This document shows, in pieces, positions 23,693 through 29,282 of a stretch of 49,940 nt of DNA. The notes beneath the pieces were generated by a model. It saw only the letters and a list, made by a program, of their open reading frames with translations. It searched no databases and was not told the origin of the DNA. A program made the translations under genes and the position numbers. Source of the stretch: Synergistales bacterium (lineage in GTDB: Bacteria; Synergistota; Synergistia; Synergistales; Aminiphilaceae); assembly GCA_021736445.1 (NCBI GenBank), contig JAIPGA010000009.1, positions 1 to 49,940 on the forward strand, in the 5' to 3' direction. Numbering within the stretch: position 1 is the first letter of the stretch; the number at the start of each line of letters is the position of its first letter.

Positions 23693-25839
23693 CCGCCCGC
23701 CACCGGACCATCGCCGAGGAACTGCTGCTGGAACACTGGCAGGTGGAAGCCGTCCTCCGGCTCATGGACGAGGGCTGCACCATCCCCTTTATCACCCGGT
23801 ACCGGAAGGAGGCCACCGGGAGCCTTGACGAGGTGGATATCACCAGGATACGGGACAGGAACGACGCTCTGGCCGCCCTGGACGAACGGAAGGAGCGTAT
23901 TCTCCGGTCGTTGCGGGAACGGGAGCTTTTGAGCGACGAACTGGAGCGGGCCATCGCCGGGGCCGGCACACTGCAGGTTCTGGAGGACATCTATCTTCCC
24001 TACCGACCAAAGCGGACGACCAGAGCCGCCCGGGCCAGGGAACGGGGGCTGGAGCCTCTGGCCCTCCTGCTGTGGGAACAGAGCGGACACGACCCCGTGG
24101 AGAAAGCCAAAACCTTTGTCGACAGCGAAGCCGGGATCGACGATGAGGATGCCGCTCTGGACGGCGCCTGCGACATCATCACCGAATGGATCAGCGAAGA
24201 TCGGGGGATACGGGAGAGGCTGCGGTCGCTCTATGGGAGCAAGGGGATCGTCACCTCGAAGGTCAAGGCCGCCAAAAAGAACGACCGGGAGGCACAGACC
24301 TTCCGGGACTATTTCGAATGGGGCGAGGGCATCACCCGCATCCCCTCGCACAGGGTACTTGCGCTCTTCCGTGGAGAGTCCCAGGGTGTTCTGACGGTGA
24401 AGATCGGGGTTCCCGAAGCGGAGGCGCTCCAGCTGATCGAACACGATATCGTCACCGGCCTCGGCCCCGACTCGGAGGAGATCCAGTCGGCGTCGCGGAA
24501 TGCCTTCAAGCGCCTCCTGGCCCCGGCGATGGAAAAGGAGATGCGCCGACAGCTGAAAACGGAGGCCGACATCGAGGCCATCGACGTCTTCTCCGCCAAC
24601 CTGAAGAAGCTGCTCATGGCCCCTCCTTTCGGCAATCGCCGCGTCCTCGCCGTGGATCCCGGCCTGCGGACGGGATGCAAGGTGGTCTGCCTCGACGAAC
24701 AGGGGGGGCTGCTCCACCAGGAGGTTCTCTACCCCCTGAATGGAGACAGCCAGGCCAGGGAAGCCGCCGCACGTTTCGGCGAACTGGCTGGACACTACCG
24801 TCCCGAAGCCATCGCCATTGGAAACGGCACCGGCGGGCGGGAAACAGAACAGTTTTTCCGGAACAGTGTCTCCCTTCCGGAGGGTGTGGTGGTCAGCCTG
24901 GTCAATGAAAGCGGGGCCTCGGTCTACTCCACCTCCGAAGCCGCCCGGAGGGAGTTCCCCGATCAGGACGCCACCGTCCGGGGCGCCGTTTCCATCGGGC
25001 GGCGCCTCATGGACCCGCTCGCCGAACTTGTGAAGATCGACCCCAAATCCATCGGGGTGGGACAGTACCAGCACGATGTGGACCAGAAGGCGCTCCGATC
25101 CGCCCTGGACGACACGGTGGAGCTCTGCGTCAACGCAGTGGGGGTGGCCGTCAACACCGCCAGCCCGGAGCTCCTCGCCCGCGTATCGGGACTCAGCGGA
25201 AAGAAGGCCGAGGCCATCGTCCGCTTCCGCGCCGAAAAGGGGCTCTTCGCCTCCCGGCAGGCGCTCAAAGCCGTCCCGGGCATCGGCCCCAAGGCCTTCG
25301 AACAGTGCGCCGGCTTCATCCGCATCCCCGGCGGCGACAACCCGCTGGACGCCGGGGCCGTACACCCCGAAAACTACCCCATTGTAGAAGCCATGGCCGC
25401 CGATCTGGGATGCACCGTCAGAGAGCTTCTCGACAGCCGGGCACTCCAGCAGCAGATCGACCCGAACCGGTATATCACCGCCGATGTCGGTCTTCCGACA
25501 CTGCAGGATATCCTTGAAGAACTGGCACGGCCCGGAAGAGACCCCCGAAGCCCCTTCGCCGCCTTCGCGTTCGACCCGCGCGTCCGCTCCATCGACGATC
25601 TCGCTCCGGGGATGGTGCTGCCCGGCATTGTCACCAACGTCACCTCCTTCGGGGCCTTTGTCGATGTCGGCGTCCACAACGACGGGCTCATCCACATCAG
25701 CGAACTGGCCGACCGCTTTGTGCCCCACCCTTCGGAGGTTGTGAGCCCCGGCGACCGGATCCACGTGCTCGTGCTGGATATCGATACCGAACGCAAACGG
25801 ATCTCCTTCTCCAAAAAGGGACTCAACCGAGAGGGATGA
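23689..25839 (+). CDS. tex: RNA-binding transcription accessory protein Tex
   Basis: A 716-aa Tex/YhgF protein: N-terminal helical domain, YqgF-like RNase H domain beginning NRRVLAVDPGLRTGCKVV (about 320), tandem helix-hairpin-helix repeats (ARVSGLSGKKAEAIV and LKAVPGIGPKAFEQ, about 500-540) and a C-terminal S1 domain (about 640-712, GMVLPGIVTNVTSFGAFVDVG). It binds nucleic acid and transcription machinery; the precise role is unsettled. ATG 23689 forms ATGA with the ybaK stop. The 3' end overlaps the convergent polymerase gene by 17 bp. Confidence 0.95.
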   Translation: MTARHRTIAEELLLEHWQVEAVLRLMDEGCTIPFITRYRKEATGSLDEVDITRIRDRNDALAALDERKERILRSLRERELLSDELERAIAGAGTLQVLEDIYLPYRPKRTTRAARARERGLEPLALLLWEQSGHDPVEKAKTFVDSEAGIDDEDAALDGACDIITEWISEDRGIRERLRSLYGSKGIVTSKVKAAKKNDREAQTFRDYFEWGEGITRIPSHRVLALFRGESQGVLTVKIGVPEAEALQLIEHDIVTGLGPDSEEIQSASRNAFKRLLAPAMEKEMRRQLKTEADIEAIDVFSANLKKLLMAPPFGNRRVLAVDPGLRTGCKVVCLDEQGGLLHQEVLYPLNGDSQAREAAARFGELAGHYRPEAIAIGNGTGGRETEQFFRNSVSLPEGVVVSLVNESGASVYSTSEAARREFPDQDATVRGAVSIGRRLMDPLAELVKIDPKSIGVGQYQHDVDQKALRSALDDTVELCVNAVGVAVNTASPELLARVSGLSGKKAEAIVRFRAEKGLFASRQALKAVPGIGPKAFEQCAGFIRIPGGDNPLDAGAVHPENYPIVEAMAADLGCTVRELLDSRALQQQIDPNRYITADVGLPTLQDILEELARPGRDPRSPFAAFAFDPRVRSIDDLAPGMVLPGIVTNVTSFGAFVDVGVHNDGLIHISELADRFVPHPSEVVSPGDRIHVLVLDIDTERKRISFSKKGLNREG

Positions 25840-27121
25840 TCCGCTCCGAGGCGCTTTCGGCGCTCCGCTCCGTGTTGACCCGTTCCGCACCACCGGGGTG
25901 GTCCCGACGCATGGCCCAGCTCCGGCGTCCGGGCTCACCCGACCCCGCCAGCCAGATCAGTTCTTCACCGGAGGCGTTGATGCTGTCCACGACGCGCATC
26001 AATCGGCGCTGCCTGCTCCGGTCGGCCACGGCGAAGAGTCTGGGCTGTACGGCCTGCCGCGGAACCAGAGGAGCGAGGACCACCGAAACCTTCTTGAAGC
26101 TGTATCCGCTGCGGTAGATCTCCTCTATCCCCCGCAGCGCCGCCTTCACCAGCGTGGGCGTATACTCCGTCGGTTCGGCGAGCCTCACATCGATGCCCTG
26201 AGCGTACTGGGGTGCCTCCCTGTCGAACCGGTTCGTCATGATGGCCACCTGCACACAGGTGGCCATCATGCCATCCCGTCGCATCCGTTCGGCGGCGTCA
26301 GCCACATAGGCCGCCGCTGCCTCGGCGAGGTCCCCGTACGAGGAGAGCGGCCTTCCGAAACTCTTGGCCACAGAGACGGACTTCCGCGGCTCCCGCCGCT
26401 CTCTGAGCGCGTAACAGGGGATCCCGCGCAGTTCGTAGGCCATCTGCACGACCCGAATCCCATAGCCCTTGAGCGCCGCTTCTTCATAATCCCGCAGTGC
26501 CTCGGCAGTGGTGAGCCCGATCTTCCGGAGACCCCGCGCCAGACGTCTCCCCACCCCCCAGATCTCTTCAACGGGGGTCTGGCGGAGAATCGCATCCCGC
26601 TCCCCGGCATCCCGGGGCAGCACAAAAACCCCCTGGGACAGTCGGTTCCTCTTGACGTGATGCACCGCCACCTTGGCCAGGGTCTTGGTATCGGCGACAC
26701 CGATCGAAAGGGGAACCCCTGTCTGCCGCCACACCGCCCGACGGATATCGCGGGCATAGCCGGCGGGGTCTTTCCTGGCGAGGATGTCCAGAGAAAGAAA
26801 GGCCTCATCGATGGAGTAGACCTCCATAAGGGGAGAGAAACGACGGAGCACATCCATCACCTGACGGGAGACACGGTTGTAGAATGCGTGGTCCCCGCTG
26901 AGGACAGCCACATTGTGGCGTTCCAGAAAGGGGCGTACCTTGAAATATGGGGTGCCCATGGCCACACCCAGGGCCTTGACCTTCGGCGAACGGGCCACGA
27001 TGCAGCCGTCGTTGTTGGAAAGCACCACCACCGGTCGATCTCGCAGAGCGGCGTTGCGCACCCGCTCGCAGGAGACATAGAAGTTGTCGCAATCGCACAG
27101 CGCGATCAGCAATGTAATCAC
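25823..27121 (-). CDS. umuC: Y-family DNA polymerase, UmuC type
   Basis: Translesion DNA polymerase V-like catalytic subunit, 432 aa. Motifs: LCDCDNFYVSCERV (8-21) with metal ligand Asp10, YSIDEAFLSL (102-111) with Asp105-Glu106, the UmuC-type SIGVADTKTLAKVAVHHVKR, the helix-hairpin-helix region WGVGRRLARGLRKIG, little-finger domain to about 360 and a UmuC C-terminal tail. Start GTG 27121 or the internal TTG 27112, which has better spacing from AGGTG. No umuD or lexA-like gene is adjacent, so cleavage-activated partner proteins, if any, lie elsewhere. A near-consensus promoter and two 8-bp repeats precede it, suggesting stress control. Confidence 0.92.
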   Translation of the reverse strand: MITLLIALCDCDNFYVSCERVRNAALRDRPVVVLSNNDGCIVARSPKVKALGVAMGTPYFKVRPFLERHNVAVLSGDHAFYNRVSRQVMDVLRRFSPLMEVYSIDEAFLSLDILARKDPAGYARDIRRAVWRQTGVPLSIGVADTKTLAKVAVHHVKRNRLSQGVFVLPRDAGERDAILRQTPVEEIWGVGRRLARGLRKIGLTTAEALRDYEEAALKGYGIRVVQMAYELRGIPCYALRERREPRKSVSVAKSFGRPLSSYGDLAEAAAAYVADAAERMRRDGMMATCVQVAIMTNRFDREAPQYAQGIDVRLAEPTEYTPTLVKAALRGIEEIYRSGYSFKKVSVVLAPLVPRQAVQPRLFAVADRSRQRRLMRVVDSINASGEELIWLAGSGEPGRRSWAMRRDHPGGAERVNTERSAESASERIIPLG

Positions 27122-27349: not shown

Positions 27350-28045
27350 TCAGGCTTCGTAGATGAAATAGACCCCGGCGAGAATGATCAGGACACCGCA
27401 GACCCGGTTGATCCACAGCGTTCCCCTGGAGCGTTCGTCCCACTGCATGAACCGCTGTACGAACCCGGCGAAGGTCCCCACGGCGATGATCACCAGGGCG
27501 ACACCGGCGGCGTAGGCGAACAGCAGCAACATGCTGAATACAGGCTGCGTGGCCACGATTTTCAGCACCAGCACCATCACCGGCGCCACATAGGCGAAGG
27601 AACAGGGACCCACCGCCAGCCCCGAAACCAACCCGAGGACCAGAGCGCCCATGGCGCCTGAGCGCTTCGTTTCGACAGCAGGCTGAGCAAACCAGGGGAT
27701 GGTGATGACCTCCAGCAGGTGCAGCCCGACAACAACAAGGATGGCGGCCACAAGGTAGTTGAGATAGCTGCCGATCCCCGAAAGAAAGTGCCCCGCCGTA
27801 GCGATCAATCCCCCGATAAGCAACAGGTTCACCAGTATGCCGACCCCGAACAGCGAGGAGAGCAGCAGAGCCTTCCGGGGATTCTCGGCGCTCTGGCTAT
27901 CCACGTAGCCGACGATGAGCGGGATCGCCACAATGTTGCAGGGGCTGAGGATGATGCTCATGCCGCCCCACAACAGCGCCGCGCCGATGGCGATCCCGCT
28001 GGACTCCTGCAGGGCCACGCTTATCGTGCGAATGAAAGCATCCAT
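27350..28045 (-). CDS. ccdA: CcdA-family transmembrane thiol reductant transporter
   Basis: A 231-aa, six-helix membrane protein of the CcdA/DsbD-beta family, which passes reducing equivalents from cytoplasmic thioredoxin to extracytoplasmic thiol proteins. The two reactive cysteines are visible in LSPCNIVAIPLI (first helix, about 32-43) and VGPCSFAYVAP, each followed by the proline-containing pattern typical of CcdA. Start ATG 28045 has AGGGAGCTGG upstream and lies 13 bp after the thioredoxin-like gene, so the two are cotranscribed. The likely electron acceptor is that neighbour, whose active site reads UPAC if UGA is decoded. Confidence 0.9.
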   Translation of the reverse strand: MDAFIRTISVALQESSGIAIGAALLWGGMSIILSPCNIVAIPLIVGYVDSQSAENPRKALLLSSLFGVGILVNLLLIGGLIATAGHFLSGIGSYLNYLVAAILVVVGLHLLEVITIPWFAQPAVETKRSGAMGALVLGLVSGLAVGPCSFAYVAPVMVLVLKIVATQPVFSMLLLFAYAAGVALVIIAVGTFAGFVQRFMQWDERSRGTLWINRVCGVLIILAGVYFIYEA

Positions 28046-28058
28046 CGTACCAGCTCCC

Positions 28059-28616
28059 TTAGGATTCGTTCTCCGGAGGCTCCACGCCGAGCTTCTTCAG
28101 ACCCACCCGGAGCTCCTCCAGTTTCGCCATACCCTCGTGTTTCCCGATCGCCTTTCCGGACGGGTCAAGGATAACCAGGGTGGGCACCACGCGGACGTTG
28201 TACCGCTCGGCCACTGCCTGATTCTCCCACACGTCGACCGTCTGTACCTCCAGTGCACCGCTGAATTCCTGATCCAGATCAGAGACCACCGGCCCCATAG
28301 CCTTGCAGGCCGGTCAGGTGGCCGTTTTCAGATAGAGGAGTCTGTAGGCCCCTTCGTCGGCCGCTGCGGATTCCGTCCCTGCTTCAGTCGGGACCGCGGT
28401 CCCATCCGATGCCACCTCGCCCGAGCCGGCATCGGCCGACGCTGTCGGGACCTGTGCGGCAGTGGGCAACGCCTGCGCGTTCTCCTGCTCCGCCACGGGC
28501 TGCTCTCCGGCGACGTCAGCCTGTTCCGCAGGATGGTCCCTGTTTTTCAGCACCAGGGCGCCGCCAACCAGCAGCGCCACCCCTACAAGGACAAGGGCTT
28601 TCCCCTTTGTCTTCAT
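28059..28616 (-). CDS. Membrane-anchored thioredoxin-like selenoprotein (UPAC, UGA = Sec)
   Basis: One 185-residue gene interrupted in frame by TGA at 28314-28316. ATG 28616 follows a GGGGGGAA site. The order is: membrane anchor (about 7-23, ALVLVGVALLVGGALVL), Ala/Glu/Pro-rich linker (about 28-88), then a compact thioredoxin fold starting YRLLYLKTAT. The TGA is codon 101 and is followed by PACK, so it replaces the first cysteine of the CxxC motif (U101-P-A-C104). The fold continues with VVPTLVILD containing cis-Pro145 and a C-terminal helix. Coding quality is intact on both sides and hairpins follow the TGA, so selenocysteine is favoured over a nonsense mutation. It should be an extracytoplasmic thiol oxidoreductase reduced by CcdA, encoded 13 bp downstream. 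A broken gene is the main alternative. Confidence 0.8.
28269..28316 (-). promoter_or_regulatory. Candidate bacterial SECIS region after the in-frame UGA
   Basis: Reading from the TGA (28316-28314), a perfect 7-bp stem ACCGGCC/GGCCGGT (28314-28308 with 28294-28288) encloses a 13-base loop; a second hairpin with stem CTGAT/ATCAG occupies 28282-28269. The first loop is nearer to the UGA than is usual for bacterial SECIS elements and the second is at the far end of the usual range, so which one acts is unclear. Confidence 0.4.
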
Positions 28617-28674
28617 CGCTGTTCCCCCCTGTTCTGTGTACCTCTCGTCCGATTTGTGGCACAATACAGTGGAA

Positions 28675-28788: not shown

Positions 28789-28808
28789 CCCCCAAGGAGG
28801 TGGATGGT

Positions 28809-29282
28809 ATGGTGCGGATTCTTGCAGCGATGCTCTCGCTGCTCCTTGTCCTGGCCCCACCGGCGGCATCCTGGCAGCTGACCGAACGGGCACAGAGCAT
28901 CTACGACTCCCTCCCCACATCAACGGTATCCCCTGTGGAAAGCTGGCTCTCCTGGGCCCCCTCTTCCCTGCGGGAGAAGGAACGGGAGAGCCTTGGCGCG
29001 CTGGCCGGAGCCTGGATCATCTGGGGATACACCCAGGGCGAGGGGTTCCATAAGGCCGCGTTTCTCTCCTATCTGGAGCAGGAAGAAGGAGACATCGTCC
29101 ACGGCAACGTCTTCGCGCGCGGCGGGGTACGGATGTCTGTGGACAACCTCGCTGAAGAGGGAAGTGCAGACCAGGAATGGGTGGCCACACTCCTCGCGCC
29201 GGGCATGCAGCCCACGGCTCTCGCCTGTTCGCTCTATGCGGGGCAGAGCCCTCTCTTTGACAGCATCAGTCCGGACCAGTAG
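28809..29282 (+). CDS. Secreted hypothetical protein, 157 aa
   Basis: I do not recognise the family. ATG 28809 has GGAGGT at a good distance; an in-frame GTG at 28800 overlaps the site and is less likely. The product has a signal peptide (about 1-21, ending PPAAS) and a mature domain of about 135 aa with LTERAQSIYDSLP near its N terminus, a central GYTQGEGFHKAAFLSYLEQ and no obvious enzymatic motif. It is divergently transcribed from the selenothioredoxin-ccdA operon, whose substrate proteins are extracytoplasmic, but it contains a single cysteine (in LACSLYAG), so a disulfide is not expected within one chain. Confidence 0.7.
   Translation: MVRILAAMLSLLLVLAPPAASWQLTERAQSIYDSLPTSTVSPVESWLSWAPSSLREKERESLGALAGAWIIWGYTQGEGFHKAAFLSYLEQEEGDIVHGNVFARGGVRMSVDNLAEEGSADQEWVATLLAPGMQPTALACSLYAGQSPLFDSISPDQ

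Follow-up and report, generated by a model that had tools for sequence, protein, structure and literature searches.

A membrane-anchored thioredoxin with a predicted selenocysteine at its redox site, encoded beside ccdA in a Synergistales bacterium

Introduction

The stretch of Synergistales DNA analysed here (49,940 nucleotides, hereafter the window) carries two open stretches that lie in one frame and are separated by a single TGA. When TGA is taken as a stop, as in standard annotation, two fragments are reported and the protein is missed. A preliminary description of the locus had read them together as a membrane-anchored thioredoxin with selenocysteine (Sec) replacing the first active-site cysteine, cotranscribed with a gene for the electron donor CcdA. 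The locus thus raises two questions: whether the TGA is decoded as Sec, and what such a protein would do next to CcdA.

A single thioredoxin domain spans the TGA

We found the reading frame and its one in-frame TGA as described, and placed the gene on the minus strand, which had not been specified (Table 1). The TGA, codon 101 (28316-28314), falls at the first cysteine position of a thioredoxin redox site that reads T-U-P-A-C-K. The protein matched Pfam PF00085 with an E value of 3e-13 (50 bits, cut-off 23.5) and also PF13098 (33.7 bits). One N-terminal hydrophobic helix and a linker of about 60 residues precede the domain, and the rest of the fold follows the TGA, including P145 at the cis-Pro position within a VVPT motif. 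An AlphaFold model, built from twelve sequences with Cys substituted for Sec, displayed pLDDT values of 93-96 across residues 91-180 and secondary structure elements in the order E-H-E-H-E-E-H. The nearest solved structures identified with Foldseek were thioredoxins (top match 2o85, E 3.8e-08, TMt 0.80). Fold, CxxC-type site and cis-Pro are all present, which places the protein in PF00085. On the other hand, its score with the canonical thioredoxin model TIGR01068 (45.4 bits) did not reach the equivalog cut-off of 96.8, and no NCBIfam model reached its cut-off with this protein.

A stop-free run of 84 codons follows the TGA. As such a run is expected by chance in one frame with p ~0.08, openness by itself is weak proof. 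Chance is instead excluded by the fact that both halves form one thioredoxin domain, and by the presence of 29 other genes in the phylum with TGA at the identical column. If UGA acted as a stop here, translation would yield a short peptide with the anchor and perhaps a C-terminal fragment from a start of its own; UGA is also an ordinary stop codon, and an in-frame ATG (M107) occurs six codons past it. However, a stop would cut the fold at the active site into two pieces that are not expected to fold, the C-terminal one devoid of the redox nucleophile, whereas the Cys-containing relatives are single continuous proteins. We consider termination at this codon extremely improbable, and the least likely of the explanations weighed in this study.

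Table 1. Positions of the thioredoxin gene, its elements and neighbouring genes in the window
Feature	Position	Strand	Basis or remark
Predicted Sec-thioredoxin gene	28059..28616	minus	185 aa with TGA as Sec; Pfam and sequence
Start codon ATG	28616-28614	minus	Sequence
Stop codon TAA	28061-28059	minus	Sequence
Shine-Dalgarno-like AGGGGGG	28624..28630	minus	7 nt 5' of ATG; sequence
Predicted membrane anchor helix, residues 5-23	28548..28604	minus	Hydropathy; helix 6-27 in AlphaFold model
Low-complexity linker rich in Ala/Glu/Pro/Thr, residues 28-88	28353..28535	minus	Low pLDDT; sequence and model
Thioredoxin domain, residues 89-178	28083..28352	minus	Pfam PF00085; AlphaFold model; Foldseek
In-frame TGA, proposed Sec101, first position of UPAC	28314..28316	minus	Sequence and homologue alignment
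Codon of resolving Cys104	28305..28307	minus	Sequence; invariant in homologue alignment
Pro145, cis-Pro position	28182..28184	minus	Invariant in homologue alignment
Candidate SECIS hairpin GGGGCC-GGU-GGUCUC	28282..28296	minus	6 bp, GGU triloop; 23 nt after UGA; same place as class-1 hairpin (18 relatives)
ccdA, DsbD_TM family	27350..28045	minus	231 aa; starts 13 nt after thioredoxin stop; Pfam PF02683
Shine-Dalgarno-like GGGAGC of ccdA	28053..28058	minus	Directly after thioredoxin stop; sequence
Divergent ORF	28803-29282	plus	159 aa; no Pfam/NCBIfam match
UmuC/DinB-type polymerase gene, downstream of ccdA	25823-27121	minus	PF00817, PF11799, DUF4113

The genome encodes selenocysteine machinery and other selenoproteins

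Examination of the genome for selA, selB, selC and selD, suggested earlier as a check, revealed all four. The selA gene (478 bits) adjoins selB (319 bits) on contig 4, the tRNA-Sec gene (76.3 bits) is on contig 21, and selD (333 bits), on contig 32, itself carries an in-frame TGA. The assembly is fragmented into 112 contigs and is 97.6% complete. Besides the window gene, seven known selenoprotein genes bear TGA at the canonical site: those for SelD, four GrdB proteins (context TSTUGTCTRCGA) and two GrdA proteins (TECFVUTAAG). Judged from its genome, the organism can decode UGA as Sec. The six Grd genes of this genome (G000) were located on contigs C68, C22, C18 and C46 (L192-L197). Synergistota were previously known to be rich in selenoproteins, and 13 selenoprotein genes have been reported in Aminobacterium sp. 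MB27-C1 (PMC12013277).

Selenocysteine and cysteine interchange among Synergistota relatives

If the TGA encodes Sec, Cys or UGA should appear at codon 101 in homologues, as the preliminary description had proposed. We searched 61 genomes and then, by profile, 188 Synergistota genomes, plus named genomes, and examined the 83 distinct Synergistota genes retaining the two-residue redox site. The first redox position was encoded by TGA in 30 and by TGC or TGT in 53 (31 and 22, respectively). Including the window gene, the TGA genes are spread over 28 genomes and 12 genera, Dethiosulfovibrio and Acetomicrobium among them. The in-frame TGA thus occupies a conserved redox site that is Cys in other homologues, the pattern of bacterial selenoproteins. 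TAA or TAG did not occur at this codon in any tabulated homologue, and relatives of the thioredoxin were not found in viral contigs.

In the first sample, all genomes with a Sec gene have tRNA-Sec above the cut-off, and two genomes without a strong tRNA-Sec and without SelB above the cut-off (G036, G047) both carry Cys. SelB above the cut-off was absent from one Sec genome, G019, which is only 86% complete. Another genome, G005, encodes two full-length SelB proteins above the cut-off (C1:115089-116933; C2:296380-298251) and has a Cys thioredoxin.

A tree of the homologues requires 10 Sec/Cys changes, at least 8 of which are forced by well-supported branches; its resolution is limited by the small number of alignment columns and by long branches in places. 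In this tree the window gene groups as sister to three Cys genes. Its nearest orthologues (family f6) have TGC and the gene is absent from the three other genomes of the organism's own family, leaving it without a close Sec neighbour. Together with the fragmentation of the assembly, the TGC of these orthologues could mean that an ordinary CPAC thioredoxin underwent a change from TGC/TGT to TGA in this genome alone, either as a pseudogene or through a sequencing or assembly error. A sequencing error, considered beforehand as a potential refutation, cannot account for TGA in 30 genes from 28 genomes, and the 29 TGA genes other than that of the window rule out pseudogene and error as general explanations. 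As for the window gene itself, a local defect is contradicted by the TGA at the same column in those genes, by the Sec machinery and the seven other Sec genes of the genome, by an otherwise intact frame with conserved Cys104, P145 and G162, and by a hairpin of published SECIS geometry in place, although this hairpin is weaker than those of the relatives (see below). With Sec and Cys swapping at exactly this position in relatives, the in-frame stop is almost certainly no broken gene, and we judge the chance of a pseudogene or error to be very small. We infer that codon 101 of the window gene encodes Sec, and on the strength of these comparisons regard this as nearly certain.

In a small number of divergent homologues, most of them second copies from gut lineages, the first Cys is replaced by a different residue (for example EPTC in L063 and SPEC in the second copy of L076) or both cysteines are gone, indicating that the first redox position is not absolutely fixed across the wider family. 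Homologues of gut Synergistota (L024, L019, L076, L141, L063 and L167), often tandem second copies, retain the domain apart from one or both redox residues, as in MKKNSPEC and STKTYSGREN.

A candidate SECIS hairpin follows the UGA

The published bSECIS model comprises a loop of 3-9 nt with G in the first two places and a stem of 4-16 bp, at 16-37 nt from the UGA and with MFE <= -7.5 (PMC13188914). We compared the folding of the region 12-48 nt after the codon with that of shuffled sequences. The mean z-score was -1.62 for Sec genes (n=30) and +0.28 for Cys genes (n=53), with a Mann-Whitney U p of 9e-11 that is not corrected for relatedness. Two classes of hairpin were recognized. Class 1, with 18 distinct sequences, has a 6-bp stem and an RGUY loop; 98% of pairs are kept, and at one pair five of the 18 sequences have G-C instead of U-A. 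Class 2, with eight sequences, has an 8-bp stem with two compensated pairs. These patterns provide strong sequence evidence for a SECIS hairpin in the Sec relatives. Frequent switching between Sec and Cys in one family, with the hairpin accompanying Sec and missing with Cys, constitutes a natural experiment on the retention and loss of Sec.

In the window gene, the SECIS check proposed beforehand gave a divided result: a hairpin with suitable geometry is present, and its standing as a SECIS element is suggestive. The loop, stem and spacing of the GGU hairpin satisfy the published geometry. Alone it gives -5.5 to -6.7 kcal/mol, and the stretch from +6 to +38 gives -10.8. Longer stretches fold no better than shuffled sequences (z -0.14 for 36 nt and -1.29 for 51 nt). 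A stronger stem beside the UGA competes with the GGU hairpin. The latter is the optimal fold only if the nucleotides immediately 3' of the UGA, which would lie under the ribosome, are excluded. GGY triloops on 7-bp stems, 17-18 nt after the UGA, were also observed in selD and all four grdB genes of the same genome, and not in the grdA genes. A hairpin of this type follows 10 of the 1132 TGA triplets in the window (0.9%). As this match was noticed post hoc, it supports the window hairpin and does not prove it. The GGU hairpin was preferred to an alternative one, CUGAU-CUGG-AUCAG (28282-28269), whose distance from the UGA is borderline for the model and whose loop does not have G at either of its first two positions.

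The adjacent ccdA gene and the nature of the pair

The ccdA gene starts 13 nt 3' of the thioredoxin stop and has a Shine-Dalgarno-like site of its own, making cotranscription very probable. Its product matched PF02683 (DsbD_TM; 44 bits, cut-off 27.1), and Cys36 and Cys148, the SPC and GPC redox cysteines of CcdA, are situated inside predicted helices, as in members of this family. It was the sole DsbD_TM protein detected in the genome. A ccdA gene is located -10 to +18 nt from the thioredoxin stop in 25 of the 29 Sec genes that could be assessed; among the Cys genes linkage was found in 10 of 53, three of them remote, and these counts are not corrected for relatedness. At the gene level, the locus therefore has the make-up of a CcdA-coupled extracytoplasmic relay, in which the gene of an anchored or exported thioredoxin accompanies ccdA.

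The best NCBIfam match of the CcdA protein was ArsG (NF040495), and weak matches to the thioredoxin-like ArsE/ArsF families were also seen. This raised the possibility that the thioredoxin does contain Sec, but that its neighbour is an ArsG-type permease and the pair acts in the export or detoxification of metalloid or aromatic compounds rather than in a disulfide relay. The ArsG score of 54.9 bits, however, is far below the cut-off of 200, the protein retains both the SPC and GPC cysteines of CcdA and passes the Pfam DsbD_TM cut-off, and no third gene recurs beside the operon in the ten neighbourhoods inspected. We rejected an ArsG-type identity for the neighbour on the basis of its score, and regard a role of this kind for the pair as unlikely.

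ResA and CcmG are likewise anchored thioredoxins paired with CcdA, and a weak ResA match (15 bits against 170) was obtained for the window protein, so a Sec-thioredoxin serving cytochrome c maturation was also considered. The family score is weak, and no cytochrome c maturation gene recurs in the ten neighbourhoods. Such a role appears less likely still than one of the ArsG kind.

Comparison with known systems

Sec-thioredoxins with a UxxC site are established as a family in bacteria (PMC9312934, PMC13188914), with examples in Treponema denticola and Geobacter (PMC1794560). The window protein shares with them the thioredoxin fold of PF00085, Sec for the first active-site Cys and the existence of Cys homologues, but differs in its membrane anchor, its UPAC site, the adjacent ccdA and its score with the NCBIfam thioredoxin model (45 against 97 bits). 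In the CcdA-Etrx relay of Streptococcus pneumoniae (PMC3914529), a membrane-tethered extracytoplasmic thioredoxin receives electrons from cytoplasmic thioredoxin through CcdA, an arrangement that the genes suggest here as well. The Etrx proteins, however, are Cys lipoproteins that feed MsrAB2, whereas the window protein would have Sec and a helix anchor, and no MsrA was detected.

Three further selenoproteins were compared. TsoB, a rhodanese/DsbD fusion-like protein (NF045694), also combines Sec with a DsbD-like membrane part, and CcdA matched its middle region (39 bits); TsoB is, however, a single fused protein with a UxxxxU site, and the score is far below the cut-off of 805. SaoT (NF040730) is a thioredoxin-like UxxC selenoprotein and belongs to the SAO operon, which encodes six selenoproteins (PMC13188914). 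Weak SaoT matches were found in 6 of 21 members of the window protein's family, but the window protein itself had no NF040730 match at E 0.001, and its neighbours are ccdA and the UmuC-like gene. The thiol:disulfide interchange selenoprotein (PF13098, UxxC; table in PMC9312934), compared here by its description, is also a predicted thioredoxin-like Sec protein and shares the PF13098 match, but no record was found linking it to CcdA.

The relay had been put forward as unusual. This holds for the combination, as we found no description in the open-access literature that joins a Sec-thioredoxin with CcdA; UxxC selenothioredoxins and CcdA-membrane thioredoxin relays are each already known. With the window gene, the Sec-thioredoxins gain a branch that is predicted to be exported and coupled to CcdA.

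A proposed extracytoplasmic selenium-dependent relay

In several orthologues (L014, L020, L022) the N terminus resembles a signal peptide with an AxA site. Together with the anchor and linker, these N termini make the earlier proposal of a thioredoxin domain outside the membrane a well-supported prediction, although the charges around the anchor favour an outside location of the C-terminal part only weakly. CcdA proteins carry electrons outward from cytoplasmic thioredoxin. We propose the following course of events. SelB, guided by the hairpin just 3' of the UGA, would insert Sec at codon 101. The uncleaved N-terminal helix and flexible linker would hold the thioredoxin outside the cytoplasmic membrane, with Sec101 as the attacking residue of the UPAC site. 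CcdA, from the same likely operon, would probably draw electrons from cytoplasmic thioredoxin and deliver them through the membrane to the selenenylsulfide between Sec101 and Cys104; the protein, kept reduced in this way, could reduce oxidised targets on the outside. Electron flow would resemble that in S. pneumoniae, where CcdA1/2 feed the anchored thioredoxins Etrx1/2, which in turn reduce MsrAB2 (PMC3914529), with a selenol as the nucleophile. An anchored extracytoplasmic Sec-thioredoxin kept reduced by CcdA is, overall, the explanation that we favour with good confidence; the relay fed by CcdA, an electron step that we infer from gene adjacency, we regard as likely, with slightly more reserve.

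Neither MsrA nor DsbA was found in the genome (97.6% complete as assembled), and both were rejected as partners; the target is thus probably not MsrA, and the role probably not that of a counterweight to DsbA. More tentatively, Synergistota may possess a lineage-wide extracytoplasmic seleno-redox relay from CcdA to Sec-thioredoxin, in which strict anaerobes use the selenol to resist over-oxidation or to act on a hard-to-reduce substrate outside the membrane, in the present case in an organism whose genome yielded neither DsbA nor MsrA. We consider this a possibility of rather low probability. The locus suggests that strict anaerobes may spend selenium on reducing power on the outer side of the membrane.

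In two genomes a nitroreductase-family gene directly follows ccdA (L200:4845-5393, minus strand, Pfam-confirmed; L203:4304-4843, minus strand). In two others, both of genus g21, a PF00578 peroxiredoxin gene whose peroxidatic Cys codon is replaced by an in-frame TGA (FTFVUATEV) lies near the operon (L201:7156-7878, minus strand; L204:886-1608, plus strand). This arrangement was seen in these two loci only, and the peroxiredoxin, a candidate second selenoprotein, could be a redox partner of the thioredoxin there.
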